Shown one piece after another: positions 9,993 through 59,970 of a stretch of 63,706 bases of DNA. The translations under genes and the position numbers were made by a program. The notes below the pieces were generated by a model. That model searched no databases, had not been told where the DNA came from, and worked only from the letters and a program-made list of their open reading frames with translations. The DNA is from an uncultured Eubacteriales bacterium (GTDB taxonomy: Bacteria; Bacillota; Clostridia; Oscillospirales; Acutalibacteraceae), in assembly GCA_949292775.1 (NCBI GenBank), contig CASFBL010000011.1:1-63706 (forward strand), written 5' to 3'. Each line of letters opens with the position of its first letter. The first letter of the stretch is position 1.

Positions 9993-9993
9993 T

Positions 9994-29952: not shown

Positions 29953-29965
29953 AAATATCCTCCTC

Positions 29966-32862: not shown

Positions 32863-33908
32863 ATGTGCGGTAAGGTGCGGGTTTGGGAAGAAAAAATACT
32901 GCTGCCGACCTATAAGATCGGTGCGCCCAATAAAAACCCCATGTTTTTAGAGAAAAGGGTTTATCAGGGCAGCAGCGGCAAGGTCTATCCGCACACGGTG
33001 ATTGACCGTATTTTTGACGAAAAAGAGGACAAAGCCTATACGGCGGTCTATTTGGAAAACGATTATATCAAGGTCATGGTTTTGCCGGAAATCGGCGGCA
33101 GAATCCAGCGCGCGGCGGACGCGAATATCTCACCTATCTGCCCGACGGCAAAAAGCAGGAAATTCCGCAAGCGGCCGTCTGCCCGCCCGACCCGGCGGAC
33201 TGCGCAACGACCGAGGATTTATATTTGTATGGTCTGCACATCACGCAGTACCGTCACGCAACTTACGCGCCGGAGGATTATTTCAAAGAAGGTCTGCGGC
33301 GTGACCCGACCGACATCCGGCTGAACAACGCTTACGGGCTGTTGCTGCTGCGGCAGGGATATTTTAAAGAGAGCGAGCCGTTTTTCCGCGCCGCCGTGCA
33401 AAAAGCAATACGCTCTAACCCGAATCCCTACGACAGCGAGCCGTATTACAATTTGGGGCTGTGCCTGTTGTATCAGGGCAGGCTTTCAGAAAGCTATGAC
33501 GCGTTTTACAAATCCACATGGTGCAACGCCTGTCAGGAAGCGGCGTTCTATCACATGGCGTGCATCTGTGCAAGACAGGGTGACTTTGAAACGGCGCTTG
33601 CACATTTGGATGATGCAATTATTAAAAACGGGCGTAATTATAAAGCGCTCGACCTCAAAGCCATGCTCCTTTTGAAAACCGGGCGCGAGGAACAGGCGCG
33701 TGCGCTTGCCGAAACCGTGCGTTCGCTGGATGCGCTGGATACAATCAGCGGCCGTATTTTAGGGAAACCCGTTTCCATGAACCACAACCACGCCATCGAA
33801 ATCGCCATTGAATTTGCCGCGGCGGGGCTGTATGAAGACGCAATCGAAGTCCTGCGCCAAGACAACAGCCATTTTGCCATGCTGATATACAAAAAGCTGT
33901 TTGCATAA
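32863..33908 (+). pseudogene. Remnant of a DUF5107/TPR protein with an internal deletion and frameshift
   Basis: Frame 1 from the ATG at 32863 (good AAGGAG site) encodes a typical DUF5107 N-terminus (RVWEEKILLPTYKIGAPNKN, VMVLPEIGGRIQRA). Near 33112 homology jumps to another frame that encodes GREYLTYLPDGKKQEIPQ, then LYLYGLHITQYRHATYAPED and TPR repeats up to 33908. Full-length relatives are about 1100 residues; here the beta-sandwich core between residues of about 85 and 400 is missing, and the C-terminus also stops early (MLIYKKLFA). It stands first in the glycan run, and an intact DUF5107 paralogue lies at 47573-49483. DUF5107 proteins are often found in carbohydrate loci, with function unknown. 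Confidence 0.8.
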
Positions 33909-33932
33909 ATCATTAAAAAAGGAGACACAACG

Positions 33933-34988
33933 ATGAGAAAGTTTTTCAAGAAAAAAGCTGTTCGGGTCATTCTTTGCGTGCTCGCCGTTTGGCTTGCCGT
34001 GGTGGCAGTTTGCAACGCGTGGTTCGCTTCGGTTGCGCTGCAAGAGCAAAAGGGCGTTGCCGTGTGTGACGAATGGTCACCTGAGGACACCTACACGCCC
34101 GATTACGCACAGAGCATTGATGCAGGCGACGGCGACTTTAAAATCCTCTGCCTGACAGATATACATATCCGCAATCACGGTACTTTTGCTGCGGCGCTCG
34201 GCGTCAACTTCATTTTGGACGGCATGAGCCGCATCCGGTTGAAGCAGCTGATTGAAGAGGTGCAGCCCGGGCTTATTCTCATCGGCGGCGACACGGTTTT
34301 GACCGCGTGGAACGACATTTGCACACAGCAGTTTGCCGATTTCATGGACGGCTTTGAAATCCCCTGGGCGCCGGTGTTCGGCAACCACGATTATGAGGGA
34401 CGCGCCGACAAGGCGAAGCTTGCGGAAATCTATGAAAGCAGCGAATACTGCCTGTTTAAAAGCGGCCCTGCCGGCATGAACGGCATGGGCAACTATATCA
34501 TCAACCTGACACGCGACGGCAAGCCGGTTTATTCCCTGTTTATGTTTGACGACGGGCAATATCGCATCGTCGACGGTCAAATCACCGACGGCGGCATCGG
34601 CGAAAATCAGATTGCGTGGTATAAATGGGCGGTAGACGGCATTCTTGCACAGGCCGGCGAGACCGTGCCGAGCATGGCGTTTATGCATGTGCCGCTTCCG
34701 GAATACAAAGAAATTACCGATGGCTATACACAAGGCATGCGCGGCGAGGACAGCTATACAGCGGTGAATAACGACGGTTTCTTTACAGCCTTTAAAGAGA
34801 ACGGCGGCACTCATGTTTTTGCAGGTCATGACCATAACAACAACTTCTTCGCGGAATATGAAGGCGTACAGCTTTGCTATTTCACAAAAAGCTCTTACAA
34901 CTGCTATTTCTCCTTTGATGCGCTCGGCGGCAATGTACTGACGCTCGACAGCAACAACCAGATCCACGCGGAGATCAAATCGTTTTAA
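33933..34988 (+). CDS. Membrane-anchored calcineurin-like metallophosphoesterase
   Basis: This 351-residue protein begins with a transmembrane anchor (VRVILCVLAVWLAVVAVCNA), which puts the catalytic domain outside. Motifs in order are LCLTDIHI (Asp-x-His), LIGGDTV, VFGNHDYEG, FMHVPLPE and FAGHDHNNN, so all metal ligands are present. AAGGAGA precedes the ATG. It is the first intact gene of the glycan run and one of five surface phosphoesterase-type proteins in that run. Confidence 0.92.
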   Translation: MRKFFKKKAVRVILCVLAVWLAVVAVCNAWFASVALQEQKGVAVCDEWSPEDTYTPDYAQSIDAGDGDFKILCLTDIHIRNHGTFAAALGVNFILDGMSRIRLKQLIEEVQPGLILIGGDTVLTAWNDICTQQFADFMDGFEIPWAPVFGNHDYEGRADKAKLAEIYESSEYCLFKSGPAGMNGMGNYIINLTRDGKPVYSLFMFDDGQYRIVDGQITDGGIGENQIAWYKWAVDGILAQAGETVPSMAFMHVPLPEYKEITDGYTQGMRGEDSYTAVNNDGFFTAFKENGGTHVFAGHDHNNNFFAEYEGVQLCYFTKSSYNCYFSFDALGGNVLTLDSNNQIHAEIKSF

Positions 34989-35002
34989 CAAAGGAGAACG
35001 CC

Positions 35003-36301
35003 ATGCGGTTTCGTTTTGATTACAGCAAAACCATGCTTTTAAAGCTGGGCATCGGGCTTCCCGACAACAAGGGCGGCTGCAAAATGTCCAACACCTTTGA
35101 ACAGGCGCTTGAAAAAATCAAGGCGGCGGACGCGCTCACGCTCGGTGCGCCGAAAATCGTGTATTTGGTCGGTTGGCAGTATTTGGGGCACGACGACAAA
35201 TACCCCGCCTTTTTTGAGGTAAATGAATATGCCAAGCGCGAGCAGGACGCGACCGCGCGCGACAGTTTGCTGTGGCTGATGCGGGAAGCACGCCGTTATC
35301 ACACGACGGTTTCTCTGCACATCAATCTTTCCGACGCCTATCCCGACAGCCCGCTGTGGGACACCTACCTGCAAAACGACCTGATTTTATGCAAGGCGAA
35401 CGGCAAACCGAAACCGACCGGCGTTTGGAACGGCAGAACCGCCTATCAGGTGCGGTTTGCTGAGGAATATAAAAGCGGGTTCTTTCAAAAACGCGCCGAG
35501 CAGCTTTTAGAGCTTGTTCCCGAGCTGCAAACGGCGGGAACGATTCATGTCGATGCGTTTTTTGTAAGGCGCGGCAAAAACACCACGATTGCGGAAGAAA
35601 AGAAATACCGCCGCAAAATGATTGAATGGTTTTTAGACAAAGGCATAGATGTCACTTCTGAGTTCATTTACCGGGAGCTTGCCTGCGGCTATCGCTCGCT
35701 TTGGGGCAAAAGCGATACGGTGGGGCTGATTCCCGCCGTTTGGAACCTCCGCATGACACAGCGCGACTATCTGCGTTATCCCCCGCAGCTTTTGGCGGGC
35801 GGTCAGCTTGCCATGGGGATTCAATGGGATAAGGATTTGCAGTATCTGTTTTACGGAAACGCGCACGGCGAACAAAACTTCGGGCTGAACGGCGCCGCGT
35901 TCCAGCAAGCCTTTACGCGCGAATTCGCCCTGAAGACCGTGCCGTATTTATTTTTGAACGCACACAAGCTTCGCTCGATTTCCGGCGTGGGGAAAGCCCG
36001 GCGGGCGCATTTTGACGGCGGTGTGCAAACGGCGGTGCGTGACCAGGCGATTTATGAAAACGACCGGCGCTTAAAATCCGGCGAAACGCTTTGTCTGCCG
36101 GTTGCCTGGCAGGAGAACGCCTGGTATGCGTTTTCCGGCAGCGGCGGGGAATGTGAAGTTTATGTGCCGTTTGAAAAAGTGCGTGTTTACCGTGTCGGCG
36201 CCGAAGGAGAGCACTTGCTGACAGAAGCTAAAACAAACCGCAACTTATTAAAGCTGACTATGGAAAAAGACACAGGTTATAGAATCGAAAAACAATCATA
36301 G
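35003..36301 (+). CDS. GH101-like glycosidase, catalytic domain only, cytoplasmic
   Basis: This 432-residue protein has the marks of the GH101 (endo-alpha-N-acetylgalactosaminidase) TIM barrel: YLVGWQYLGHDDKYPAFFEV near residue 55 and SLHINLSDAYPDSP further on. The candidate nucleophile Asp184 is in TIHVDAFF and the candidate acid/base Glu220 in DVTSEFIY, a spacing near that of GH101. Classical GH101 enzymes exceed 1000 residues, are secreted and carry binding modules; this one has only the core and no signal peptide. A paralogue lies at 54857-56206. Specificity for core-1 O-glycan is inference. Confidence 0.6.
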   Translation: MRFRFDYSKTMLLKLGIGLPDNKGGCKMSNTFEQALEKIKAADALTLGAPKIVYLVGWQYLGHDDKYPAFFEVNEYAKREQDATARDSLLWLMREARRYHTTVSLHINLSDAYPDSPLWDTYLQNDLILCKANGKPKPTGVWNGRTAYQVRFAEEYKSGFFQKRAEQLLELVPELQTAGTIHVDAFFVRRGKNTTIAEEKKYRRKMIEWFLDKGIDVTSEFIYRELACGYRSLWGKSDTVGLIPAVWNLRMTQRDYLRYPPQLLAGGQLAMGIQWDKDLQYLFYGNAHGEQNFGLNGAAFQQAFTREFALKTVPYLFLNAHKLRSISGVGKARRAHFDGGVQTAVRDQAIYENDRRLKSGETLCLPVAWQENAWYAFSGSGGECEVYVPFEKVRVYRVGAEGEHLLTEAKTNRNLLKLTMEKDTGYRIEKQS

Positions 36302-36311
36302 GGGGAACGAT

Positions 36312-36740
36312 ATGCTGAAACATATTCCGAAAAATCTGTCTCCGGAGCTGCTCAAGATCCTTTGCGAAATGGGGCACGGCGACGAAATTGTTCTGGCGGA
36401 CGCCAATTTCCCGTCTGCATCGATTGCCAAAAGGCTGGTGCGCGCCGACGGAATCCCCGCAGGCGAACTGCTGCAGGCGATTTTGACGCTGATGCCGCTT
36501 GACCAGTATGACAGCGAAAACTTTCTGCTGATGGAAAAGTGCGCGGGCGACCCGGCAGACACCTCTGTTTGGGAAGAATACCAGACGATTTTGCATGCGG
36601 CGGAACCGCAGGCAAAAGCCGCCTTTTTAGAGCGGTTCGCGTTTTATGACCGTGCGCGGCAGGCGTATGCGGTTGTGGCAACCGGCGAAACCCGCCAATA
36701 TGCCAATATTATTTTGAAAAAAGGATGTGTTTTGGAATGA
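36312..36740 (+). CDS. fucU: L-fucose mutarotase (RbsD/FucU family)
   Basis: This 142-residue protein interconverts fucose anomers. MGHGDEIVLADANFPS, with the conserved His22, is the FucU active-site segment, and the C-terminal YANIILKKG matches the family. It is coupled to the following dehydrogenase gene by an ATGA overlap, suggesting that fucose is oxidised next rather than isomerised. Confidence 0.93.
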   Translation: MLKHIPKNLSPELLKILCEMGHGDEIVLADANFPSASIAKRLVRADGIPAGELLQAILTLMPLDQYDSENFLLMEKCAGDPADTSVWEEYQTILHAAEPQAKAAFLERFAFYDRARQAYAVVATGETRQYANIILKKGCVLE

Positions 36741-37951
36741 CGGTGAAAGGCACTTATTTCCAAAACGATGCCAGCCGGCCGCTTTGCTACGGCGAGGTTG
36801 AGACCATCAACCCCAAGCGGCAGCGCCGCAGAGGCGAACCGCTTTTAGAGGGAATCGCGGCAAAGCCGGTGTTTGTAGGCTTTTGCGGCACCGATTATGA
36901 GCTGATGCAAATGGGTCGCCGCGGGGCGTTGACACCCAAATTCCCGAAAGGCGAAGCAAGACTCATCAACGGGCACGAGGGCGTTGTGTTTGTGCCGTCG
37001 CAAAACCGGTTCGCCATTGTGCTCATCCGCGGCGGCGACAGTGCCGACCCGACGCGCTTTACAGAGGATGAAACCTATTTTGAATACGGCTGTGACGGCG
37101 CCGACGGGCTTTTCTGCGACGAAAACTATTTCAATCCCGATATGCTTTTGCATTTGCCGCCGCAGTATGACGGGCTTGAAAAGCTGCCGCTTTCTCTTGC
37201 GAAAAAGTTAGTGTTTTCCGACCCCTATGCCTGCGCTGTGTTCCAGCATGAGCGCATGTGCGACATCGGTACGGCGCAGAACTTCCGTGTTATTATGGCA
37301 AAAAAAGGCTGTTCAGAGGCGGAAGCGCGTTTAGAAGCGTGCGAAAATACATTTGCACGCACCGTGATTTTCGGTATGGGCACGACGGGGCTGTTTATCG
37401 GCGACCAGATTCGGCGCAATCACAAAGACGCCCGGATTTTGTTCGTGGCGCGCAGCGACGAATCTTCTGCCAAGGTTCGCTTTGCAAAAGAGGTTATCGA
37501 AGGCGCGGACTATCTGTGCACCGACGGTATGGACGAAAAAACGACCGCGCGCGAAATTCTTCGTAAACTCGGCGGCACGGCAACGGTGTTTGTCGGCACA
37601 AGCGGCAGCGAAGTGGAACACAGGGTAGCTTTCGGGGAAGGCGTGCTTGGCTGCAACGGCATTTACGACAGCTTTTCACTGGGCCCGAAGGTGACCTTTG
37701 ACACCATGCCGTTTGGATTTAAAAACCATGTGATTCTGTCTTCTATCAATTTCACGCAGGCGCACATGGAAAAGGCAATCCGGATTTTGTGCGAGAGCCG
37801 TTTTGATGAAATTGTCGAGCTGATTGACAAAGAGGCGTTTACGCAAGACCCCATTGCGGCTTATGAAAACAAAATTTTTGCAAAGGGTTCGTCGCTGAAA
37901 ACAGCGGTTGTGTGGAACCCCGAATATATGGAGATGGATTTGACAAAATGA
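36737..37951 (+). CDS. Medium-chain dehydrogenase (glucose-1-dehydrogenase-like), candidate L-fucose dehydrogenase
   Basis: This 404-residue protein has the MDR fold. GFCGTDYELM (catalytic-zinc cysteine region) and LINGHEGVV (His and Glu) are in the N-terminal part, and the Rossmann motif is VIFGMGTTGLFIG. These resemble glucose/galactose 1-dehydrogenases that make aldonolactones. The ATG at 36737 overlaps the fucU stop codon, and its own stop codon overlaps the next ATG. Oxidation of L-fucose to fuconolactone is the role suggested by context. Confidence 0.75.
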   Translation: MTVKGTYFQNDASRPLCYGEVETINPKRQRRRGEPLLEGIAAKPVFVGFCGTDYELMQMGRRGALTPKFPKGEARLINGHEGVVFVPSQNRFAIVLIRGGDSADPTRFTEDETYFEYGCDGADGLFCDENYFNPDMLLHLPPQYDGLEKLPLSLAKKLVFSDPYACAVFQHERMCDIGTAQNFRVIMAKKGCSEAEARLEACENTFARTVIFGMGTTGLFIGDQIRRNHKDARILFVARSDESSAKVRFAKEVIEGADYLCTDGMDEKTTAREILRKLGGTATVFVGTSGSEVEHRVAFGEGVLGCNGIYDSFSLGPKVTFDTMPFGFKNHVILSSINFTQAHMEKAIRILCESRFDEIVELIDKEAFTQDPIAAYENKIFAKGSSLKTAVVWNPEYMEMDLTK

Positions 37952-38967
37952 AAAGCATTCAAATTACAAAACCGGGTGAAATTCAAATCAAAGAAGTGCC
38001 CATGCCGGTTGTGGGCAAGGATGAAGCCTTGCTGCAAATTCTTTACTGCGGCATTTGCGGGGCGGATGTAGCGTCTTTTACCGGCAATCAGCCGTTTACG
38101 ACCTATCCGCGCATTCCCGGGCACGAATTCAGCGCCCGAATCGTGGAAATCGGCGAAAATGACCGCGGCTTAAAAGCGGGCGATATTGTAACCGCAAACC
38201 CGTATTTCAACTGCGGGCACTGCTACGCCTGCCAAAGAGGGCTTGTAAATGCCTGCACGGACAATCAGACAATGGGTGTGCAGCGTGACGGCAGTTTCTG
38301 TGAATATGTTGCCATGCCGGTTTCGCGCATTATTCCGGGCAAGGGGCTTTCGGCAAAAGCGCTTGCGCTTATCGAGCCGTTTTCCATCAGCTGCCATGCG
38401 CTTTCGCGTGCAGCGGTGCGCCCGGGCGACAACCTTTTGATTATGGGGGCTGGCCCAATCGGTCTGTTCGCGTTGATGAAAGCCAAGGCCATGGGCGCGC
38501 GCGTCGCGATTGCCGACCTTTTAGACAACCGTCTTGCGCTCGCTGAAAGCTACGGTGCGGATATGACCATTTCTGTCGAAAAGGAAGACCTTGCTGAAAA
38601 AGCGGCGGCGTTCACAGACGGAAACGGATTTGATGTTTGCGTGGAAGCGTGCGGACAGCCGGCAACTTTCCTGTCCTGCATTGACGCGGCGGCGCACGGT
38701 GCGAACATCATTCTCATCGGCAACGGCAAAAAAGAAACGACCTTTGTGCATTCGGTGCTTTTGAAAAAAGAGTTAAATGTTTTCGGCAGCCGCAACGCAT
38801 ATACAAAAGATTTTGAAGAATTGATAGAACTGGTGGCGGCCGGCGGTGCGGATGTGCTGAAAATGGTCAGCGGCGTATACCCGATGGAGCGCGCTGAGGA
38901 AGCGTTTTCGGCGCTGGCACACAACGACGGAACGCTTGCAAAATTGTTGATTCAAATTGCAGATTGA
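37948..38967 (+). CDS. Zinc-dependent alcohol dehydrogenase (sorbitol/threonine dehydrogenase type)
   Basis: This 339-residue MDR enzyme has the catalytic-zinc motifs CGICGADV and GHEFSARIVEIGE, the structural-zinc cysteines in FNCGHCYACQRG, and the cofactor loop GAGPIGLFALMKAKAMGA. ATGA coupling with the previous dehydrogenase indicates joint expression. It may oxidise 2-keto-3-deoxy-fuconate or handle lactaldehyde; the sequence does not decide. Confidence 0.88.
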   Translation: MKSIQITKPGEIQIKEVPMPVVGKDEALLQILYCGICGADVASFTGNQPFTTYPRIPGHEFSARIVEIGENDRGLKAGDIVTANPYFNCGHCYACQRGLVNACTDNQTMGVQRDGSFCEYVAMPVSRIIPGKGLSAKALALIEPFSISCHALSRAAVRPGDNLLIMGAGPIGLFALMKAKAMGARVAIADLLDNRLALAESYGADMTISVEKEDLAEKAAAFTDGNGFDVCVEACGQPATFLSCIDAAAHGANIILIGNGKKETTFVHSVLLKKELNVFGSRNAYTKDFEELIELVAAGGADVLKMVSGVYPMERAEEAFSALAHNDGTLAKLLIQIAD

Positions 38968-38977
38968 GGCGAGAAAA

Positions 38978-40303
38978 ATGAAAGAAACGATTATTCAGTT
39001 CGGCGAAGGGAATTTTCTTCGAGGCTTTGTAGATTATTTTATACATAAGCTCCATGAAAAAGGGCTTTATGACGGCAAGGTAGTTGTTGTGCAGCCTATT
39101 GAAAAAGGACTGGTGCCGGTTTTAAACGAGCAGGCGGGTGTTTACAACCTGTATTTGCGCGGTATGGAAAACGGGCAGCAGGTCGTGGAGCACACGCGCG
39201 TTACCTCGATTTCCCGCGGCATTGACCCTTATGCGGATTTTGACGCATTTCTGCGCCTTGCAGATTCGCCGGATTTTCGGTTTGTCGTGTCCAACACCAC
39301 CGAAGCGGGCATTGCGTTTGACAGCACCTGCGCATTTACCGACAAGCCTGCCCGTTCTTTCCCGGGAAAAGTCACGCAGCTTTTATTCCGTCGTTTTCAG
39401 AACAACCTGCCGGGCTTTGTGTTTCTTGCCTGCGAGCTAATTGACAATAACGGCGGGGAACTGCGAGATTGCGTTCTGCGCTATGCGGATTTGTGGGAAC
39501 TGGGCGATGAATTCAAGGCGTGGATTGACTCTGAAAATACTTTTTGCAACACACTTGTGGACCGCATTGTGACCGGCTACCCGAAAGACGAGGCTGAGGC
39601 GCTCTGCAAAGCGCTCGGCTATCAGGATAAGCTGCTCGATACCGCAGAGATTTTCCACCTGTGGGTGATTGAGGGCAACTTCGAACAGGAACTGCCTTTG
39701 CAAAAAGCCGGGTTCCATGTGGTTTGGACAGACGATGTTCGCCCCTATAAAAAACGCAAGGTGCGGGTGCTCAACGGTGCGCACACCTCTATGGTCTGCC
39801 CGGCGATGCTTGCGGGGCTTTCCACAGTCGGCGAATGCCTTGCTGACGAACAGATGCGTCGGTTTTTGAACACCTGCCTTTTCCAGGCAATTTTGCCGGT
39901 GCTCGGCGAGAACGAAGAAAACATGGCGTTTACAAGCGCAGTTTTGGAGCGCTTTTCCAACCCGTTCATTAAGCACCGGCTTTCGTCTATATCGCTGAAT
40001 TCCGTCAGCAAGTACAGCGTGCGCGTTCTGCCGACCGTTCTCGATTTTTACAAGGCAAACGGTGTTTATCCAAAAGCTTTGGTTTTTTCTCTTGCCGCTT
40101 TGCTTGTATTTTATAAAACCGCTTCGCCGCAGGATGACGCGGCGGTCATTCAAAGCATCCGCCAGCGCGATTTGCCGCAGATTCTTTCAGATGAAGCGCT
40201 GTGGGGCGCTGACCTTTCCGGGCTTTTGCCGCTGGTGCAGGAAAGCATCCAGCGCATTGCGCGTGACGGCATTCGGGAGGCGATTGAGTGGGCTATATCC
40301 TGA
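38978..40303 (+). CDS. Mannitol-dehydrogenase-family oxidoreductase (tagaturonate reductase UxaB-like)
   Basis: This 441-residue NAD-dependent enzyme begins IIQFGEGNFLRGFVDYF, the UxaB-type dinucleotide-binding start. It has VVSNTTEAGIAFD and the catalytic-lysine region FSNPFIKHRLSSISLNSVSK. GAGGCGAG precedes the ATG at 38978. UxaB normally reduces tagaturonate to altronate. Next to fucU and a lactonase, a related 6-deoxy sugar acid is equally possible. Confidence 0.88.
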   Translation: MKETIIQFGEGNFLRGFVDYFIHKLHEKGLYDGKVVVVQPIEKGLVPVLNEQAGVYNLYLRGMENGQQVVEHTRVTSISRGIDPYADFDAFLRLADSPDFRFVVSNTTEAGIAFDSTCAFTDKPARSFPGKVTQLLFRRFQNNLPGFVFLACELIDNNGGELRDCVLRYADLWELGDEFKAWIDSENTFCNTLVDRIVTGYPKDEAEALCKALGYQDKLLDTAEIFHLWVIEGNFEQELPLQKAGFHVVWTDDVRPYKKRKVRVLNGAHTSMVCPAMLAGLSTVGECLADEQMRRFLNTCLFQAILPVLGENEENMAFTSAVLERFSNPFIKHRLSSISLNSVSKYSVRVLPTVLDFYKANGVYPKALVFSLAALLVFYKTASPQDDAAVIQSIRQRDLPQILSDEALWGADLSGLLPLVQESIQRIARDGIREAIEWAIS

Positions 40304-41664
40304 TTCACCCGGCGGACAATGTCGTCGTTTCGCCGGAAAACGGACATAAATATGCTGCGAAAGACATTTCAAAGGGGGAAACCGTCTTTAAATATGGGTT
40401 CCCTATCGGTTTTGCCAGCGCCGACATCCAAAAGGGCGAGCATGTGCACAGCCACAATCTGAAAACGGCGCTCGGCGGCGAGCAAGCATATACTTACACA
40501 CCGGACATACCGAAGCAAACGCCGCTTGCCGCGCCCGAGATTTCAGCTTTTGTGCGGCAAAACGGGGAAATCGGTATTCGCAATGATATTTGGATTATTA
40601 ACACAGTCGGCTGCGTCAACAAAACGGCACAGCGCCTTGCCGCGGCAACGGGCGCTTTCTCGTTTGCGCACCCGTATGGCTGCAGCCAGCTTGGCGGCGA
40701 CCATGCGGTCACGCAGAAGATTCTCTGCGGCCTGATTCGCCACCCCAATGCCGGCGGCGTGCTGGTGCTGGGGCTTGGCTGCGAAAACAACCGTATTGAT
40801 GAATTGAAAAAGGTACTCGGACCTTATGACAAGCAGCGGGTTCGGTTTTTGAACGCGCAGGACTGCAGCGATGAACTTGAAGAGGGCGTGCGTCTGATTC
40901 GCGAGCTGCAGGCCGTTGCAGCTAAAGACAGGCGCGTTGCGGTGCCTGCCTCTAAGCTTAAAATCGGTCTGAAATGCGGCGGCAGCGACGGCTTTTCCGG
41001 CATTACCGCCAACCCGCTCATTGGGCGTATTACCGAACGCCTGACAGCAATGGGCGGCACAGCCGTGCTTTCGGAAGTGCCGGAAATGTTTGGCGCAGAG
41101 CAGCTTTTAATGAACCGCTGCGTCAGCCAAACGGTGTTTGAACAGACGGTGCAGCTGATCAACCGTTATAAGGCCTATTTTATTGCACACGGTCAGTCGG
41201 TCAGCGAAAATCCGTCGCCCGGCAATAAAGCGGGCGGCATTACAACGCTCGAGGAAAAATCACTCGGCTGTGTGCAGAAGGGCGGCAATGCGCCGGTCAC
41301 GGCTGTTTTGGATTACGGCGACACGGCAGTGCTTCCGGGCTTAAATCTTTTGAACGGTCCCGGCAACGATATGGTGTCTGTGACCAATCTGACGGCGGCA
41401 GGCTGCCACATGATTTTGTTTTCAACCGGGCGCGGTACGCCGCTTGGCGCACCGGTGCCGACGGTAAAAATTGCCACCAACACAGCCCTTGCGCAGAAAA
41501 AACCGCATTGGGTGGATTTTGATGCCGGAACCGTTTCAGAGGACGGGCAGGCGGCGGATAAATTGTTCCAAACGGTATTGGATGTCGCGAGCGGCAAGCA
41601 GACGAGAAACGAAGAAAACGGATACCGTGAAATCGCCATTTTTAAGGACGGTGTTACACTTTGA
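40288..41664 (+). CDS. UxaA-family dehydratase (altronate/fuconate dehydratase-like)
   Basis: This 458-residue single-chain UxaA protein has an N-terminal SAF domain (residues about 1-85) and a C-terminal dehydratase domain with RNDIWIINTVGCVN, HPYGCSQLGGDH, VLGLGCENN and LKCGGSDGFSGITANP. GTG at 40288 lies inside the end of the previous gene behind GGGAGG. In Campylobacter jejuni a UxaA homologue next to FucU and an amidohydrolase is part of L-fucose oxidation, so fuconate is a good candidate substrate here. Confidence 0.9.
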   Translation: MGYILIHPADNVVVSPENGHKYAAKDISKGETVFKYGFPIGFASADIQKGEHVHSHNLKTALGGEQAYTYTPDIPKQTPLAAPEISAFVRQNGEIGIRNDIWIINTVGCVNKTAQRLAAATGAFSFAHPYGCSQLGGDHAVTQKILCGLIRHPNAGGVLVLGLGCENNRIDELKKVLGPYDKQRVRFLNAQDCSDELEEGVRLIRELQAVAAKDRRVAVPASKLKIGLKCGGSDGFSGITANPLIGRITERLTAMGGTAVLSEVPEMFGAEQLLMNRCVSQTVFEQTVQLINRYKAYFIAHGQSVSENPSPGNKAGGITTLEEKSLGCVQKGGNAPVTAVLDYGDTAVLPGLNLLNGPGNDMVSVTNLTAAGCHMILFSTGRGTPLGAPVPTVKIATNTALAQKKPHWVDFDAGTVSEDGQAADKLFQTVLDVASGKQTRNEENGYREIAIFKDGVTL

Positions 41665-42536: not shown

Positions 42537-42537
42537 C

Positions 42538-44172: not shown

Positions 44173-44189
44173 CCGACAGGAGTGTGCTT

Positions 44190-45671: not shown

Positions 45672-45672
45672 T

Positions 45673-49483: not shown

Positions 49484-49485
49484 TT

Positions 49486-51693: not shown

Positions 51694-51707
51694 GAGAGGC
51701 GAAAGCA

Positions 51708-52700
51708 ATGAAAAGGATTGTTTCTGTTTTTTTGGTGATGGGCATGATGCTTACCTTGTTTGCCGGCTGCGGCAAGACTACGGAGGAAATCGTCCGTACA
51801 GAGGACACGGTTTACAGCGTGTTGCAGATTACGGATGTACATATCCTCAACGATGAGAAAAAAGATGAAAAAGCATTTCGCGATATTACCAAAATGGTGG
51901 ATGCGGCGAAACCCGATTTGATTGTTGTAACCGGCGACATCACAAGCGAAGCGGACAATCTGACCGCAATCAAGACCTTTGGTGCGTTTATGGAAAAACT
52001 GGAAATTCCGTGGGCATTTGTCTATGGCAACCATGACGCCGAAGGGGACGCAGACAAGGACGCGATTGACGAATACTTGCTGTCTTTGGAATACTGCGTG
52101 TATGAGCGCGGCGACCCGGCTATTACCGGGCACGGGAATTATTACCGCAATGTGACGGATGCTTCCGGCAAGCCCATTATGACGCTCTTTATGATGGACA
52201 GCAATATGTACGACGAAGCAAACGGCGGGTATGACCATTTCCATGAGGACCAAATCGAGTGGTATAAAAATACCGTGCAGTCCATTGCTGAGGAAACCAA
52301 CGGCGATGCGTCAAAAGTCGTGCCCTCTCTCGCCTTTTTCCATATCCCGATGCAGGAGTTCACCGCCGCTTATGATGCGGCCAAAAAAGACGGCGGCAAG
52401 CTGTTTGGCTACCGCTTTGAAGATGAATGCCCGCCCACACAGGATGACCAGATGTTTGAAACTATGGTGGAGCTTGGCAGCACCAAGGGCGTTTTTGTTG
52501 GCCATGACCATATGAACAATTATGAAGTGGAGTATTCCGGCATCCGCCTTTGCTATGGGCTTTCTTGTGACCACAATATCTACCTTGTTCCCATGCGCGG
52601 CGGCAACCTCATCAATATAAAAGCCGATGGCTCATTCACCACGCAAAAGCTTATGTGTCACCGCGTTATCGGTACGCTGACCGTTACGGACGAAAAATAA
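51708..52700 (+). CDS. Lipoprotein calcineurin-like metallophosphoesterase
   Basis: This 330-residue protein begins with a lipoprotein signal (VFLVMGMMLTLFAGC, lipobox LFAGC), so it is tethered outside. Motifs are VLQITDVHIL (Asp-x-His), VVTGDIT, VYGNHDAEG, FFHIPMQE and FVGHDHMNN, complete for two-metal catalysis. It lies between the GH95 and GH35 genes with about 15-bp gaps. Confidence 0.92.
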   Translation: MKRIVSVFLVMGMMLTLFAGCGKTTEEIVRTEDTVYSVLQITDVHILNDEKKDEKAFRDITKMVDAAKPDLIVVTGDITSEADNLTAIKTFGAFMEKLEIPWAFVYGNHDAEGDADKDAIDEYLLSLEYCVYERGDPAITGHGNYYRNVTDASGKPIMTLFMMDSNMYDEANGGYDHFHEDQIEWYKNTVQSIAEETNGDASKVVPSLAFFHIPMQEFTAAYDAAKKDGGKLFGYRFEDECPPTQDDQMFETMVELGSTKGVFVGHDHMNNYEVEYSGIRLCYGLSCDHNIYLVPMRGGNLINIKADGSFTTQKLMCHRVIGTLTVTDEK

Positions 52701-52715
52701 AGGCGGAGGGATTTT

Positions 52716-54839
52716 ATGCAGATCGAGATCAAAGCAAACTTTAAGCCGGTGGAGTCGGGCAATTTCCATTATGGAAACATGGAAAGCCGTTACGGAGTTA
52801 ATACCATTTACTTCACCAAGGACGGCAAGCCTTTTGTGCCGATTGCCGGAGAATTTCATTTTTCCCGCTATCCGCATGCCTTTTGGCGTAAAGAGCTTTT
52901 AAAGATGCGCGACTGCGGAATCAATGTGGTCTCCACCTATGTTTTCTGGAATTTCCATGAGGAAGAAAAGGGGAAGTTCCAGTTTGAAGGGGACAATAAC
53001 ATTGCCGGTTTTTTGGCGCTTTGCCGCGAGATTTCCATGCCCTGCATTTTGCGCATTGGTCCGTGGTGCCACGGTGAGGTGCTGCGCGGCGGCTTCCCGA
53101 AGCGCATCAACAAAATGCCGCGCAAACGCTCAAACAACGAAGCGTATCTGCGTGAGGTCGAGGGCTACTTCCGCGGGCTTTACAATGAAGTGAAGCCGTA
53201 TTTAGATGGGAAAACCGTAATCGGCATTCAGCTGGAAAACGAATATACCGGCAGCACCGAGCACATTCGAACGCTGCGGCGCATTGCGGAAAAAGTTGGT
53301 TTTAAAACGCCGTTTTTCACCATGACGCTTTGGCCGTCCAATCGTCCCGATGACGAGTTCCTGCCCATGGCGGGCGGTTACCCGGACGCGCCGTGGGCAC
53401 GCGGCAAAAAGCAGCTTGCCCCCGACAACCGTTTTGCCATTACTCCGGGCAGATCTGAAACCGATATCGGCGAAGATTTGCTGAAAACAAAAAAAGCAAA
53501 GCGCGGTGCGTTCGGCAATGTGCCGTATGCCTCCTGTGAAACCGGCCCCGGCAATCAGGTGTCACAGCACCGGCGTCCCTGGATTTCTGAAAAGGACGGC
53601 TATGGCGTGGGCTTTGCGAAATTTGCTTCCGGCGTGAACTGGCTTGGGTATTACATGTTCCACGGCGGCCGAAATCCGAGCGACCGCCCCATGCAGGAAA
53701 CCAGAAAAACCGGGTACCCGAACAACTACCCCATTGTGGATTATGATTTTCAGGCGCCTTTGAGCCGTTACGGCGAATGCCGTGCACACGGCGACCGTCT
53801 GCGGCTGATGCATACCTTTATTCAGTCCTTTGACCCGCAGATTGCTGAAAAACAACCGTTTTTCCCCAAGTGGAATAGCGATGACCCTCGTGATATTTCC
53901 TTTTTGAAGTGCTCGGTGCGTATGGACGAGCAAATGTCGGGCTATTTCTTTGCAGGTAATTATGAAAGAGGGCTTGCCCGGCCTGATTATGAGCAGGTGT
54001 GCGTAACGGTGCAAAGCGGCGGCAAAACGCTTTGCCTTCCGGAAATTACTGTCAAAGCAGACGCTATGTTCTTTTATCCGTTTAACCTGACTGTGGCGGG
54101 CACAAAGCTCGATTATGTTTTGGCACAGCCGATTGCCAAAACAGAGAACGACGGAAAACAGACTTTGTTCTTTGTGGAATGCCCCGGCATTTCGCCGCGC
54201 TTTTCCGCGGACGGGCGCGTTACAGAGCTTTCGGTTGACGCGCCGTATGTGTTCAAAGGCAAAGACGGTGAAGCAGAAATTTTGGTGCTTTCCGAAGCGC
54301 GTGCAAAACAATTTCATCTCATAAACGGCAAGCCTGTTTTTGCCGTCGGCACGGTTTACAGCGACAAAACCACGGTGTATTGCGAGACAACACAAGGCTT
54401 TTTAGGAGAACAGGCGGTTTCAGAGCAGAAACTGGACGACTACTTCACGCTTTCTCCCTGTGCGCGGCGCAGCCTGCCGTTCAATAGTTATCTGTATTCG
54501 GCAGGAAAACGGTATTTTTATCGTCTGCAAATCAATTCAAAAGTCTTTTCACAGGCAGGGGATGTGCAGCTGGAATTTGATTTTACCGGCTTGAATTTGC
54601 AGGTGTTCTGCGGTGAACAGCTGCTGAACGACTATTTCAATACAGACGGAATATTTGTCATGCGGCTCGGTGAATATAAAGATGTGCTGACAAAAAATCC
54701 GGAACTGGTTATCCGCGCTGTTCCGGCAACCCGGTTCGGCGTTGGGCATGTTTACAGCGAGATTCCCATGCCGCCGGGCAAAGTGGAGCTGCGGCTGCGG
54801 CGTGCTGCGGGCGTGCAGACAATTTGTGCGGAAATCTGA
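52716..54839 (+). CDS. GH35 beta-galactosidase-like enzyme, cytoplasmic
   Basis: This 707-residue protein has the GH35 TIM barrel. FVPIAGEFHFSRYPHAFWR and INVVSTYVFWNFHEEEKG open it, the acid/base Glu176 is in GIQLENEY, and the likely nucleophile Glu275 is in YASCETGPGNQ. C-terminal beta-domains follow. GGAGGG precedes the ATG. GH35 enzymes remove terminal beta-galactose, for example from core-1 or type-1 chains, which suits the other enzymes in the run. Confidence 0.9.
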   Translation: MQIEIKANFKPVESGNFHYGNMESRYGVNTIYFTKDGKPFVPIAGEFHFSRYPHAFWRKELLKMRDCGINVVSTYVFWNFHEEEKGKFQFEGDNNIAGFLALCREISMPCILRIGPWCHGEVLRGGFPKRINKMPRKRSNNEAYLREVEGYFRGLYNEVKPYLDGKTVIGIQLENEYTGSTEHIRTLRRIAEKVGFKTPFFTMTLWPSNRPDDEFLPMAGGYPDAPWARGKKQLAPDNRFAITPGRSETDIGEDLLKTKKAKRGAFGNVPYASCETGPGNQVSQHRRPWISEKDGYGVGFAKFASGVNWLGYYMFHGGRNPSDRPMQETRKTGYPNNYPIVDYDFQAPLSRYGECRAHGDRLRLMHTFIQSFDPQIAEKQPFFPKWNSDDPRDISFLKCSVRMDEQMSGYFFAGNYERGLARPDYEQVCVTVQSGGKTLCLPEITVKADAMFFYPFNLTVAGTKLDYVLAQPIAKTENDGKQTLFFVECPGISPRFSADGRVTELSVDAPYVFKGKDGEAEILVLSEARAKQFHLINGKPVFAVGTVYSDKTTVYCETTQGFLGEQAVSEQKLDDYFTLSPCARRSLPFNSYLYSAGKRYFYRLQINSKVFSQAGDVQLEFDFTGLNLQVFCGEQLLNDYFNTDGIFVMRLGEYKDVLTKNPELVIRAVPATRFGVGHVYSEIPMPPGKVELRLRRAAGVQTICAEI

Positions 54840-54856
54840 AGAAAAGCGGAAAAACG

Positions 54857-56206
54857 ATGTCAAATCAAGTTTTGCCTTTTTACTACGATTATACAAAGTG
54901 CATGGTTATGAAGCTTTCCATGGCAAATCCGGACCGGAAAAATCCGGAAAAAAGCCTTGTGCACATGACTTTTGAAGAAGCGCTGGACTGCATAAAAGCC
55001 ATTGATGCCATGACCGAGGGCATTACCAAAATTTATTATCTTGTCGGCTGGCAGTATTGCGGGCACGACGACCGTTACCCGGATTTTTTTGAAGTGAACA
55101 AGGCGCTCAAGCGCCCGCAGGACAAAACCGCGCGCGATAGCCTTTTGTGGCTGCACGAAGCGGCAAAAGCCTATCACTCGGTTGTAAGCCTGCATATCAA
55201 TTTTAACGACGCTTACGAAGATGCGCCTTCTTTCGAGACTTTTGTGCAAAAAAACGCACTTATCCGCGACCGGCAGGGAAACCCGCATGCGATTGAACGC
55301 TATAACGGAAAGCGCTGCTACAAGACCTGTCTTAAAACTTATTGGGAAAGCGGCTTGTTCCAAAAGCAGTTTGACCGCCTTTTGGATTTTCTCCCGTTTT
55401 TGCAGACCTGCCACACGGTGCATGTCGACAATTTTCAGTGCTATCACAATTATCATCCGAGCGTGAGCATTCGGGAAATGCAGGAAGCGCGCCGGAAAAT
55501 GATTTTGTACGCGCACGAAAAAGGTATTGATATCACATCGGAATTTACCTATAAGGAAGACGAGACGCTCCCGAACCGAATGCCGTTCGGGCTTTCGCGC
55601 GAACACCACTACAAAACGCCCATCAACACGCTGGGGCTGATTCCGTTAAGCTGGTGGTGCACGCGCATGCGCCGGATAGAATATGTAGAGATCCCGCCGG
55701 AGGTATACTGCGGCGGGCTTTATAAGGACGGAAACTACGGAAAATATCTTTACGGCAATATGCACGGTGAGGATTTGATTCACCCCAAAGAGCAGGGGTG
55801 GAAAGCAAAGTTTTTGCACGAATTTGCAACATTGCAGGTGCCTTATCATTTCCTGTGCACGCACCGGCGGCTTTCCATTTCCGGCCACGGACTTACCGCG
55901 CGCTGTGTCTTTTCCGACGGGATTGTTTCTTGCCGCCGCCGTCAAAAAATCACTTGGGGCGGCGATGTGCTGAAAGAAAAGGACACGCTTTTTTTGCCAA
56001 TTGTGCAGCGCGACCGGGTGTGGCTGGCTTACAGCGCGACCGGCGACCGCCGCCGCTGGCCGGTAAAGGTCGAAAATGCCGATGCGGTGGAAATCAGCCG
56101 ACTTACGCCGAACGGATATGAGTTTGTGCGCGAAGAGGTCGTGCGCGACGGTTGTTTGTTTTTGAGCCTTGAAAAAGGAGAGGCGCTGCTTATACGATTC
56201 AAATAA
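54857..56206 (+). CDS. GH101-like glycosidase, second copy, cytoplasmic
   Basis: This 449-residue protein is a paralogue of the one at 35003-36301. It shares YYLVGWQYCGHDDRYPDFFE, DKTARDSLLWLHEAAKAYH and SLHINFNDAYEDAP. The candidate nucleophile is Asp191 in HVDNFQ and the candidate acid/base Glu229 in DITSEFTYK. No signal peptide or added modules. The ribosome-binding site (GCGGAAA) is weak, so it may depend on coupling to the GH35 gene ending 17 bp upstream. Divergence outside the core suggests the two copies have different aglycone preference. Confidence 0.6.
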   Translation: MSNQVLPFYYDYTKCMVMKLSMANPDRKNPEKSLVHMTFEEALDCIKAIDAMTEGITKIYYLVGWQYCGHDDRYPDFFEVNKALKRPQDKTARDSLLWLHEAAKAYHSVVSLHINFNDAYEDAPSFETFVQKNALIRDRQGNPHAIERYNGKRCYKTCLKTYWESGLFQKQFDRLLDFLPFLQTCHTVHVDNFQCYHNYHPSVSIREMQEARRKMILYAHEKGIDITSEFTYKEDETLPNRMPFGLSREHHYKTPINTLGLIPLSWWCTRMRRIEYVEIPPEVYCGGLYKDGNYGKYLYGNMHGEDLIHPKEQGWKAKFLHEFATLQVPYHFLCTHRRLSISGHGLTARCVFSDGIVSCRRRQKITWGGDVLKEKDTLFLPIVQRDRVWLAYSATGDRRRWPVKVENADAVEISRLTPNGYEFVREEVVRDGCLFLSLEKGEALLIRFK

Positions 56207-56231
56207 AGCTGCAAAAAGAAAGGGGATTTGA

Positions 56232-57365
56232 ATGAAAAAGTATTTTTGCACTGCAATGTGTGCGGTTCTGCTTTGTCTTATGCTGCTTGGCTGCGGCAAG
56301 GCGGAAGAAACATATCTGCAAGAGATTAACGGGTATTCTTTCTGGGAAAACGACTTGAGCACGGCCGTGCCCGAATACCGTACATATGACCATGTGCATG
56401 CATTTTTAGACGAAGGAACGCTGCAAAACGGCGACACGGTTTCCAAAGACGGCAAGGTCAGAAAAGTTTTGTTTTTAGGCTTTGACGGCATGCGTGCCGA
56501 TGCACTTACCAATGTGCTGTTTGATGAAAACACCTTTGACACCAACGGCTATAATGCACAGCCGCCGTACAGCGGTATCCGGGAGATTCAGAAAACAGGC
56601 GGTGTATATATCGCCTATTGCGGCGGGGAAAAGGGAACGGACACCCAGCAGTCCACCTCCACTTCGGCAAGCTGGACTTCGCATTTTACCGGCGTGTGGG
56701 GCGTTAAACACGGCATTCGTGAAAACGAAGACAGCAAAAATCTGGATTATAAGACCTTTATGCTGGAATATGCCGAACAGGGGCTGCAAACCAGTATCGC
56801 CTTTGACTGGGAGCAGTATTTTGACATCAACTTAAAAGAAGAAGTGCGCTATGTCTCCGAGCACCCGGAGCTGGAAATGCGTTTTTGCGATATCGACCGG
56901 GCAAAAGCGGATGCACTGCCGCAGGATGCACTCACAGACGATCTCACGCTTTATAATTTCATCGCGGCAGAAACGCCGTCCCAAAAAGAACCGTATGACG
57001 AAGGCATGCGCGACTATGTTTTGGAGAGAATCGAAGCCGGAGACGATATCGTGGTAGGCATTTTCCATAACATTGACAGCAACGGCCACACCTATACTTT
57101 TTCCAATGAAACCCCGCAATATGTAAATTCGGTGCGCACCTGCGATTTGTATGCTTATGATATTGTGCAGGCCATTGCCGAACGCGAGCGCACACAGAAT
57201 GAAGAGTGGCTGATTATCATGGCAAATGACCACGGCGGCACCGGGCAGGGGCACGGTGAACAGTCTGCACAGGAACGCACCACTTGGATTGCGACCAACA
57301 GAAAATTAGATACGGCTTGGTATTCTGTCGGTTATGACGGATACAATGTGCAGCAGGGAGGTTAA
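56232..57365 (+). CDS. Alkaline-phosphatase-superfamily lipoprotein (phosphodiesterase/sulfatase fold)
   Basis: This 377-residue protein has a lipoprotein signal (MCAVLLCLMLLGCG, lipobox LLGC). The fold's metal-binding acids are in VLFLGFDGMRADAL. The nucleophile is probably a Thr or Ser in STSTSASWTSHFTG; no sulfatase Cys/Ser-x-Pro-x-Arg motif is present, so a phospho-substrate is more likely than a sulfate. Later ligands are in FHNIDSNGHTY and MANDHGGTGQGHG. It starts a trio of exported phosphoesterases at the end of the run. Confidence 0.82.
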   Translation: MKKYFCTAMCAVLLCLMLLGCGKAEETYLQEINGYSFWENDLSTAVPEYRTYDHVHAFLDEGTLQNGDTVSKDGKVRKVLFLGFDGMRADALTNVLFDENTFDTNGYNAQPPYSGIREIQKTGGVYIAYCGGEKGTDTQQSTSTSASWTSHFTGVWGVKHGIRENEDSKNLDYKTFMLEYAEQGLQTSIAFDWEQYFDINLKEEVRYVSEHPELEMRFCDIDRAKADALPQDALTDDLTLYNFIAAETPSQKEPYDEGMRDYVLERIEAGDDIVVGIFHNIDSNGHTYTFSNETPQYVNSVRTCDLYAYDIVQAIAERERTQNEEWLIIMANDHGGTGQGHGEQSAQERTTWIATNRKLDTAWYSVGYDGYNVQQGG

Positions 57366-57368
57366 ACC

Positions 57369-58445
57369 ATGACCAAAAAAAGAAAACTGCGGATTTTTCG
57401 AAATGTTGTCTGCGTTTTGCTGGCAATTCTGCTGGTGATTGCCGCAATTTTGTTTTTCCCGCTGAACGGGAAAAAACATGTGGAAATCTGGAGCAGTGAT
57501 CAGGCGTTTGATATCGGCAAGATACAGACGGTTGAAAAGGACCCGGAAAAAGCGTTTAAAATTTTGCTGCTTACCGACACGCAGCTTTGGTCAAATCCGT
57601 CGGACAACGCGGCGTGCTATGAACAGATACGCGCGCTGGTCGAGCAAACACAGCCGGATATGCTCGCAACGGTCGGCGACAATGTTTCGGGCGCGACATC
57701 CCGGTTCCTGCTGAAAAACTTTATTAAAGTTATGGATTCCTTCGAGCTTCCCTGGACAGTCGTTTTCGGAAATCATGACAACGAGATACCAATGACAACG
57801 CTCAACTGGCAGGGCGACCAGCTTGAAAAATCGGAATACTGCCTGTTCCAAAAGGGGCCGTCCAATCTTTACGGCTGCGGAAATTATGTGGTCAATATTA
57901 CGGAAAGCGGCGCGCCGATATATTCCCTTTACATGTTTGACAACGGCAGATACATAGAATATGATGACGGTTCTACGCGAGAGGTCTATATGGGCTATGA
58001 GCAGATTGCCTGGTATGCGTGGAATGTTGAGGGCATCAGCAAAAGCGCCGGCAAGACAGTGCCGTCTATGACTTTCACGCATTTTGCGCCGCCTGAAATG
58101 AAGACTGCAGTTGAAAGCCTTTGCGTGCAGGATGAGAACGGACAATATACGGTTCCCGAGGACTATGGTTTTGGCATCTGCGATTATTTGCCGGGCTGTG
58201 CGCCGGTCAATTCCGGGTTCTTTGCAAAATGCAAGGAACTTGGTTCGACAAAGTATATGTTCTTCGGCCATGACCACGAAAACAACGCTTCTCTGACTTA
58301 TGACGGCATTACCATGACCTATGGTTTGAAAACCGGACCGTCTCCGGCGCCCTGGAATTCTGCCGAAGAAACAGGCGGCACACTGATTACGATTGGAAAC
58401 GCTGACGCAGACTATGCAGTTTCTGTGGAGCACATTGTTTTGTAA
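57369..58445 (+). CDS. Membrane-anchored metallophosphoesterase (Asp-x-Gln variant)
   Basis: This 358-residue protein has an N-terminal membrane anchor (VVCVLLAILLVIAAILFFPL) and an external metallophosphoesterase domain: LLLTDTQLW, ATVGDNVSG, VVFGNHDNE, FTHFAPPE and FFGHDHENN. Motif I is Asp-x-Gln instead of Asp-x-His. GGGAGG precedes the ATG. It is closely related to the next gene (shared FELPW/FGIPW, GGTLITIGNA and VEH ends), so the pair looks like a tandem duplication. Confidence 0.91.
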   Translation: MTKKRKLRIFRNVVCVLLAILLVIAAILFFPLNGKKHVEIWSSDQAFDIGKIQTVEKDPEKAFKILLLTDTQLWSNPSDNAACYEQIRALVEQTQPDMLATVGDNVSGATSRFLLKNFIKVMDSFELPWTVVFGNHDNEIPMTTLNWQGDQLEKSEYCLFQKGPSNLYGCGNYVVNITESGAPIYSLYMFDNGRYIEYDDGSTREVYMGYEQIAWYAWNVEGISKSAGKTVPSMTFTHFAPPEMKTAVESLCVQDENGQYTVPEDYGFGICDYLPGCAPVNSGFFAKCKELGSTKYMFFGHDHENNASLTYDGITMTYGLKTGPSPAPWNSAEETGGTLITIGNADADYAVSVEHIVL

Positions 58446-58470
58446 GCGGTGACAAGAAAGGGAGTTGTAT

Positions 58471-59517
58471 ATGAAAACCGGGAAAAAAGTCGGAATTGCT
58501 GTTTTATGTATATTTTTGATTGTTGTGCTGGTTGCCGGGTTTATACTGATGCCGCGGCACGGCAGCCGTATTTCTGCGCCCACATGGTATGGCGTGGAGT
58601 CTTATGACGCAGAAACCGTGCAAACGCTGCAAAAGGAAGAGGGCAAGCCCTTTAAAATCCTTCAGCTGACCGATTTGCAGCTGGATGTGCCGTTTAAAGA
58701 CAAAACTTATCTGCGCTCTTCCATTGAGAAAATGGTGACAGAAAACGACCCGGATCTGATTGTGCTGACCGGGGATAATGTCGCCGGGGTTTTGATGCAT
58801 TTCCACATTGACACAGTCGTGTCTTTAATGGATAGCTTCGGCATTCCCTGGGCAGTCGTATTCGGCAACCACGACCGGGAATTCGGGAACAATCTGAATT
58901 ATCAGGCGCAGAAGTTTTTAGACGCAGAGCATTGCCTGTTTGATGTGGGGCCTGCTTCTGTGGATGGTCTTGGCAACTATGTGATTCAGGTGGAAGAAAA
59001 CGGGCACGCGGTGTATTCTTTATTTATGCTGGATTCCCACGGGGAAATCTATACCGATACAGAAAAATATTTTGACGCGTTAAAGCCGAGCCAAGTGCAG
59101 TGGTATGCAGACAATGTCGAGGCGATTCGTCAGCAGGAGGGGCACACCGTCCCGTCCATGGCGTTTTTCCACATCCCGGTGCCGGAATACCATATCGCTT
59201 ACAATCTGGCGGAAAGCGGAAGTGACGAGGCAGAGCTCCTTGCGGGAACCCGCAGAGAAAACGAATGTGTTTCCCGCGACAATTCCGGATTTTTTGATGT
59301 ATTCCGTGAAAACGGCGGAACGCACATGTTTGCCGGGCATGACCACACAAACAATTATATTGTTCGCTACCAGGGCGTGACGCTTGCCTACGGAACCAAG
59401 ACAGGCGATTACAGCGGATATGATGAAACCAGTTTGGGCGGAACGCTGATTACCATCGGCAACGCAGGCACCGATTACAGCGTAACGGTAGAACATTTAC
59501 CGGTTCCGCTTACATAA
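58471..59517 (+). CDS. Membrane-anchored metallophosphoesterase, tandem paralogue
   Basis: This 348-residue protein has a membrane anchor (VGIAVLCIFLIVVLVAGFIL) and an external domain with LQLTDLQLD (Asp-x-Gln), VLTGDNVAG, VVFGNHDREF, FFHIPVPE and FAGHDHTNN. AAAGGGAG selects the ATG at 58471; a TTG six bases earlier overlaps that site. It is the last gene of the 26-kb run and is followed by a strong hairpin. Confidence 0.91.
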   Translation: MKTGKKVGIAVLCIFLIVVLVAGFILMPRHGSRISAPTWYGVESYDAETVQTLQKEEGKPFKILQLTDLQLDVPFKDKTYLRSSIEKMVTENDPDLIVLTGDNVAGVLMHFHIDTVVSLMDSFGIPWAVVFGNHDREFGNNLNYQAQKFLDAEHCLFDVGPASVDGLGNYVIQVEENGHAVYSLFMLDSHGEIYTDTEKYFDALKPSQVQWYADNVEAIRQQEGHTVPSMAFFHIPVPEYHIAYNLAESGSDEAELLAGTRRENECVSRDNSGFFDVFRENGGTHMFAGHDHTNNYIVRYQGVTLAYGTKTGDYSGYDETSLGGTLITIGNAGTDYSVTVEHLPVPLT

Positions 59518-59940: not shown

Positions 59941-59970
59941 TTTATGCGGAATTTAGAAAGGCGGGACGAT

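Follow-up and report, generated by a model that had tools for sequence, protein, structure and literature searches.

Why would a run of genes whose glycosidases appear to stay inside the cell also encode a set of phosphoesterases directed outside it? The question is raised by a contig of 63,706 nucleotides (CASFBL010000011.1, here G000:C11), referred to as the window, from an uncultured Eubacteriales bacterium with a genome of 2.16 Mb in 44 contigs and a GC content of 51%. Twenty codirectional genes at positions 33225 to 59517 follow one another with intergenic gaps of −16 to +25 bp, and they encode glycosidases, four metallophosphoesterases (MPEs), an alkaline-phosphatase-fold protein, and a set of sugar-catabolic enzymes. 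Judged from this layout, the genes are likely to be cotranscribed, in agreement with the single run described in an earlier sequence-only reading of the window. The run was compared with its counterparts in 39 genomes of the same genus, G000 included. The phosphoesterases carry predicted export signals and the glycosidases lack them, this split is retained in orthologs, and the linkage of MPE genes to glycosidase genes exceeds chance.

Predicted compartment of the encoded enzymes

The run encodes five phosphoesterases and seven glycosidase-like proteins.

33933–34988, plus strand: MPE33933, metallophosphoesterase with a hydrophobic N terminus (PF00149 above the cutoff)
51708–52700, plus strand: MPE51708, metallophosphoesterase with a lipobox-like N terminus (PF00149 above the cutoff)
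56232–57365, plus strand: NPP56232, candidate phosphodiesterase of the alkaline phosphatase fold with a signal-like N terminus (PF01663, marginal at 25.7 bits versus 23)
57369–58445, plus strand: MPE57369, metallophosphoesterase with a hydrophobic N terminus (PF00149 above the cutoff)
58471–59517, plus strand: MPE58471, metallophosphoesterase with a hydrophobic N terminus (PF00149 above the cutoff)
35003–36301, plus strand: GH101-like protein without an export signal (Pfam cutoff passed over part of the model)
42538–44172, plus strand: GH110-type alpha-galactosidase without an export signal (homology to a solved member)
44190–45671, plus strand: GH29 alpha-L-fucosidase without an export signal (Pfam cutoff passed)
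45673–47586, plus strand: DUF5696 protein related to GH101/GH129, without an export signal (DUF5696 best, E of 5e-19; GH129 below the cutoff)
49480–51693, plus strand: GH95 protein without an export signal (Pfam cutoff passed)
52716–54839, plus strand: GH35 protein without an export signal (Pfam cutoff passed)
54857–56206, plus strand: second GH101-like protein without an export signal (Pfam cutoff passed over part of the model; 41% identity to the first)

Export was judged by an N-terminal hydrophobicity score, not by SignalP. The five phosphoesterases score 2.5 to 3.6, compared to at most 1.3 for 14 other proteins of the run, even from their longest starts, and the TPR remnant at the head of the run shows no hydrophobic segment. 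By this measure, the split proposed in the sequence-only reading holds for all seven glycosidase-like proteins, the four MPEs, and NPP56232. Its statement that all glycosidases are cytoplasmic is correct for the run and incorrect for the genome, as a GH95-like protein on contig C6 and a GH16-like protein on C7 start with lipoprotein-like signals. A GH18 protein with a hydrophobic N terminus is encoded in the homologous region of genome G015.

Orthologs with at least 50% identity were scored in 17 loci, with the overlapping duplicates L055/L067, L054/L066, and L053/L070 counted once. Scores of at least 2.1 are found for the orthologs of MPE33933 (6/6), MPE51708 (6/6 distinct), MPE57369 (7/7), and NPP56232 (4/4). 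Read from the homologous start, the orthologs of GH110 (5), GH95 (8 distinct), GH35 (4), the GH101-like proteins (5 distinct), the DUF5696 protein (3 distinct), and GH29 (1) do not exceed 1.5; a single GH101-like frame rises to 1.87 if its longest start is taken. The split is thereby retained in orthologs at 53 to 77% identity. For MPE58471, none of the 17 loci contains an ortholog that reaches 50% identity.

Signal-less glycosidases are not unusual in themselves because digestion after import is known: Bifidobacterium longum subsp. infantis imports intact host glycans and digests them inside the cell, as described in a review (PMC7674204). The premise that mucin-type loci place their glycosidases on the surface, from which the earlier reading started, is therefore not general. 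The run resembles that system in glycosidases without signal peptides, intracellular digestion, and the removal of fucose and galactose. B. infantis uses ABC importers, whereas the run contains no transporter and symporters of the GPH family are the linked class. Exported phosphoesterases go unmentioned there, with zero occurrences of "phosph" in the main text of the review (PMC7674204). Of the route called undescribed in the sequence-only reading, import before digestion is known; the literature search, which covered few subscription papers and is weak evidence of novelty, turned up no conserved set of exported phosphoesterases within an import-first glycan operon.

Identity of the glycosidases and phosphoesterases

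The assignments to GH110, GH29, GH95, and GH35 agree with the sequence-only reading. Residues 32 to 526 of the 544 residues of the GH110 protein align to a solved alpha-galactosidase with an E value of about 1e-60. The two GH101-like proteins comprise 432 and 449 amino acids, compared to 1112 to 1531 amino acids for the matched solved chains. Neither shows full-length GH101 homology, and they are called GH101-like only, because of the partial model coverage and their short length relative to the solved enzymes. The protein at 45673, previously described as GH129-like, is best assigned to DUF5696. GH110 and GH101-like families are known from blood-group and mucin O-glycans; GH95, GH35, and GH29 are also active on plant glycans.

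Seven positions, D43, D77, N108, H109, H212, H266, and H268, are invariant across six proteins, namely, the four window MPEs and two relatives. We take them to represent the phosphoesterase metal-site motifs D-x-H, GD, GNHD, H, and GHDH. In MPE57369 and MPE58471, the histidine of the first DxH motif is replaced by glutamine. Sequence searches of solved structures with MPE51708 and NPP56232 found no relative. Fold searches with MPE51708 return many tied dimetal phosphoesterases at 12 to 17% identity, including the GpdQ, purple acid phosphatase, Rv0805, and SMPDL3 groups. The predicted model of MPE51708 has the general dimetal phosphoesterase fold, which points to no particular substrate. The model of NPP56232 is unusable at a mean pLDDT of 37.

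Conservation and linkage in the genus

An ortholog of MPE51708 is present in 7 of the 39 genomes (G000 included), and all seven also have a GH95 ortholog, a GH110 gene, and MPE33933 beside a dehydrogenase gene. The last pairing involves the putative fucose dehydrogenase gene, which adjoins the MPE33933 ortholog in six other genomes. Gene order varies, with G000, G005, G015, G031, and a type shared by G011, G018, and G019 as different arrangements. Despite these rearrangements, MPE33933 keeps to the dehydrogenase gene, MPE51708 is in most cases next to or not far from GH95, and MPE57369 accompanies GH35, NPP, or GH95. In the conservation check suggested in the sequence-only reading, three ortholog groups retain their partners (the putative fucose dehydrogenase gene, GH95, and GH35) even where other species have rearranged the locus, which supports that reading. 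In G018, both GH35 and NPP seem to have decayed, to judge from their short matches of 105 and 98 amino acids at L060:1296-1887 (G018:C21).

The linkage count is based on 132 typed MPE places, without the second pieces of split matches, and omits 13 short, weak GH35 rows. Across the 39 genomes, an MPE lies within 2 kb of 8/9 orthologs of the window GH95, compared to 0/28 other GH95s, and of 5/6 window-type GH35s, compared to 1/44 other GH35s. The Fisher and binomial values serve as guides only, since they ignore the relatedness of the genes and genomes counted. The MPE-glycosidase linkage exceeds chance. In a dehydrogenase tree, the eight rows that carry MPEs (seven genomes and L009) cluster, with 3 of 500 shuffles giving as low a value; these rows do not form one clade, and three changes are needed, two of them forced by well-supported branches.

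Half of the 24 MPE places in the G000 genome lie within 3 kb of a glycosidase, counting only glycosidases recognized in the stretches examined. Fifteen lie that near to a GPH gene or such a glycosidase, and nine to neither.

Probable fucose catabolism and transport

A block of six sugar-catabolic genes at 36312 to 42536, overlooked in the sequence-only reading and part of the unit, resembles L-fucose oxidation.

36312–36740, plus strand: FucU, L-fucose mutarotase (NCBIfam equivalog, 144.3 bits versus a cutoff of 141)
36725–37951, plus strand: DH36725, glucose-dehydrogenase-like oxidoreductase (weak Pfam match, below the cutoff)
37942–38967, plus strand: zinc-type alcohol dehydrogenase (Pfam)
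38978–40303, plus strand: UxaB-like reductase of the tagaturonate reductase subfamily (NCBIfam, 542 bits versus a cutoff of 359)
40288–41664, plus strand: UxaA-like (altronate/galactarate-type) dehydratase (GD_AH_C and GD_AH_second)
41661–42536, plus strand: Amidohydro_2 protein (Pfam), putative lactonase

Only the mutarotase is fucose specific by a curated cutoff; the two dehydrogenases, the UxaA-like dehydratase, and the Amidohydro_2 protein show superfamily-level matches only. The DH36725 gene is present in 17 of the 39 genomes. fucU was seen between MPE33933 and the dehydrogenase gene in the window and in none of the relatives. A nonphosphorylated L-fucose route is described for Xanthomonas, Campylobacter, and bifidobacteria in PMC5080750. 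Like that pathway, the block combines a mutarotase, dehydrogenases, and candidates for lactonase and dehydratase beside fucosidases; unlike it, the window has a UxaA-type dehydratase and a tagaturonate-reductase-type enzyme. By their families, the UxaA/UxaB-type members may leave room for uronate chemistry.

No transporter, and hence no dedicated oligosaccharide importer, was found in the run. The G000 genome has 8 matches to the ABC permease family PF00528 and, at an E value of 1e-10, 21 matches to the GPH family (MFS_2), some of which are pieces of one gene. Over the 39 genomes, GPH matches number 12 to 23 per genome, again with some pieces of one gene. In G005, a GPH gene is flanked by the GH110 and GH35 genes; the neighbors of the GPH gene are GH101-like and GH29 genes in G060 and the GH95 and MPE57369 genes in G025 and G059. 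The symporter of G005 has a match of 74% in the G000 genome, at G000:C6:43171-44826. Eight of the 24 MPE places in G000 are no more than 3 kb from a GPH gene, a zone that makes up about 6% of the genome. About 0.5 kb from the GPH symporter on C6, pieces of NAGLU (GH89) in three reading frames (L101:11355-13006) indicate a broken gene or an assembly error.

Borders and probable regulation of the run

31873–32721, minus strand: AraC-family regulator, divergent from the run (Pfam HTH_18 and AraC_binding), with orthologs adjoining homologous loci
32863–33908, plus strand: decayed DUF5107+TPR gene, with pieces matching residues 6–89 and 422–681 of a 1080-amino-acid relative
47573–49483, plus strand: DUF5107 protein (Pfam)
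59525–59554, unstranded: 13-pair hairpin, a terminator candidate directly behind the last gene, whose only good T tail is on the minus strand

The divergent AraC gene belongs to the unit and was overlooked in the sequence-only reading. A sigma-70-like promoter match (12/12) lies upstream of it at 32820 to 32792 on the minus strand. The extent given earlier, 32863 to 59517, describes the run correctly apart from its head, since 32863 to 33908 is the decayed DUF5107+TPR gene. This gene is intact in relatives, with about 1050 to 1080 amino acids. In L058 and L054, a GH2-like gene adjoins the intact gene and is not part of the window run. Behind the run, a CitMHS-type anion permease is encoded at 59965 to 61083, with a promoter match (11/12) at 59912 to 59940.

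Proposed function and alternatives

The run is read here as an AraC-controlled, import-first operon for fucosylated and alpha-galactosylated, blood-group-like oligosaccharides. Outside the cell, the NPP-type candidate diesterase and the four MPEs would cut phosphodiester links or take off phosphate, a role suggested by linkage. The dephosphorylated, neutral chain would then fit a GPH-family symporter encoded elsewhere, presumably that at G000:C6:43171-44826, as the linkage in a relative suggests. Inside the cell, GH110, GH95/GH29, GH35, and the GH101/GH129-like proteins would strip alpha-galactose, fucose, beta-galactose, and GalNAc, going by their families, and L-fucose would be oxidized without phosphorylation by the six-gene block. 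That the run is a glycan operon, with the role of the phosphoesterases left aside, is probable. The whole chain, in which the exported phosphoesterases work on this nutrient outside the cell, is possible and falls somewhat short of an even chance. From the sequence-only reading, the phosphoesterases as members of the unit and the compartment split, which is conserved, stand; phosphate removal outside the cell before or during import is suggested by linkage only.

Several observations weigh against this reading. None of the results points to a phosphorylated substrate for any of the phosphoesterases, and no host blood-group glycan is known to us to bear phosphate groups regularly. The candidate symporter is encoded on a different contig from the run that it would serve. 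The ninth GH95 ortholog, that of G015, has its nearest MPE at a distance of 14.7 kb. The UxaB-like gene passes the tagaturonate reductase model, pointing to uronate-type chemistry. Homologous loci without phosphoesterases, named as counterevidence in the sequence-only reading, occur in part. The dehydrogenase gene is present in 17 genomes, and in ten of them no MPE of this type adjoins the fucose block; among these ten, G022 and G023 show an MPE16215-like match about 1 kb from the block, NPP-like genes adjoin it in G026 and G033, and G012 has a short contig. The G060 locus contains a GH101-like gene, a GPH gene, GH29, and the fucose block without MPEs, and this genome also encodes a GH16-like protein with a lipoprotein-like signal. 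MPE-less GH101-like/DUF5696 loci are present in G018, G019, and G011 (L050 to L052), with the MPE-bearing cluster elsewhere in the same genomes. No match to the window MPEs was found in the stretches examined around the GH101-like homologs on L010, L012, and L014 to L022. Among 18 further MPE loci, picked by rank and variety and not randomly, 13 have no glycosidase by the comparisons made, many of them beside genes judged by eye to be housekeeping-like; in one of the 13, L088, the MPE is 3.8 kb from a GPH-like gene. The other five (L092, L093, L097, L098, and L100) sit with glycosidases or sugar symporters. The MPE family as a whole is not glycan specific. The MPE-less fucose blocks and the glycosidase-free MPE loci together indicate that the MPEs track the GH95/GH35/GH110 part and not fucose use as such.

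These 13 loci, together with the nine MPE places in G000 that are not near a GPH gene or recognized glycosidase, also speak for a different role, in which the exported phosphoesterases serve general scavenging of phosphate or nucleotides, or have the wall polymers of the cell itself as substrates, and have been duplicated and caught in glycan operons without ever touching the glycan. The fold, common to phosphodiesterases and phosphatases of many substrates, and the CitMHS-type anion permease downstream of the run fit this explanation, which is a serious possibility at roughly one chance in three. It does not account well for the partner-specific linkage that survives rearrangement, and several distinct MPEs in one operon are hard to square with simple scavenging. 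Alternatively, the glycan itself might not be of host origin: the operon could target plant or bacterial fucose- or uronate-containing glycans, with the phosphoesterases removing, for example, phosphate of bacterial capsules or of plant phospholipid-glycans. GH28, GH127-like, and GH125 genes at other loci of the genus, the UxaA/UxaB-like genes of the block, and the activity of GH95, GH35, and GH29 on plant glycans are consistent with such a target; the GH110 and GH101-like homology, with its ties to blood-group and mucin O-glycans, and a FucU above its cutoff make it rather improbable. Even less probable is action of the MPE and alkaline phosphatase folds on another glycan ester, such as sulfate, in place of the sulfatases usual in mucin use. 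The G000 genome has only two matches to PF00884 (sulfatase type), and the NPP-like protein beside the G033 fucose block matches Sulfatase weakly, below the cutoff; NPP56232, however, shows no formylglycine motif, and no MPE-fold sulfatase is known to us.

The reading of an import-first operon with phosphoesterases acting outside could be extended to the genus as phosphoester-gated foraging. Exported NPP-type diesterases and MPE monoesterases, rather than endo-glycosidases or sulfatases, would act on glycans that are phosphodiester-linked or bear phosphate and free neutral fucosylated oligosaccharides for uptake by GPH symporters. Different loci would rely on different MPE copies (this operon, the GH35/DUF5054/GPH locus on C30, the PI-PLC/GH38/GPH cluster of the window, and the GH4/GH125/GPH locus of G030). 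This extension is unlikely. Bacteroides yeast-mannan loci with phosphatases share the idea of phosphate removal in glycan use. If the enzymes act on the glycan, phosphate or phosphodiester groups would be a nutrient barrier overcome by a dedicated enzyme set of the genus, and models of glycan use should then include phosphorylated glycans alongside sulfated ones. Should they not act on it, the linkage still singles out uncharacterized exported phosphoesterases whose context is likely to be sugar use, in a genus rich in GPH matches.

Other loci and neighboring genes

A second cluster combining phospho and sugar genes lies in the window at 9099 to 20518 and comprises a PI-PLC-X domain protein, GH4, a PfkB kinase, a PHP protein, a GPH symporter, an MPE, and GH38. 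It is mostly conserved in G025 (L100), where the MPE ortholog has a signal-like start that the window copy lacks. Locus L038 (G000:C30) contains three MPE genes, a metallo-beta-lactamase-fold protein, GH35, a GH31/GH36-like protein, a GPH symporter, and DUF5054. Two MPE genes, GH4, GH125, a GPH-like symporter, and a divergent AraC-like gene are found at L097 (G030:C51); an alpha-mannan substrate is possible there, going by GH125.

Nine direct-repeat copies with a spacing of 65 to 66 bp form a CRISPR-like array at 24790 to 25353 of the window. Beside it, at 25771 to 29988, proteins of 1101 and 299 amino acids look by eye like Cas9 and Cas1, respectively.

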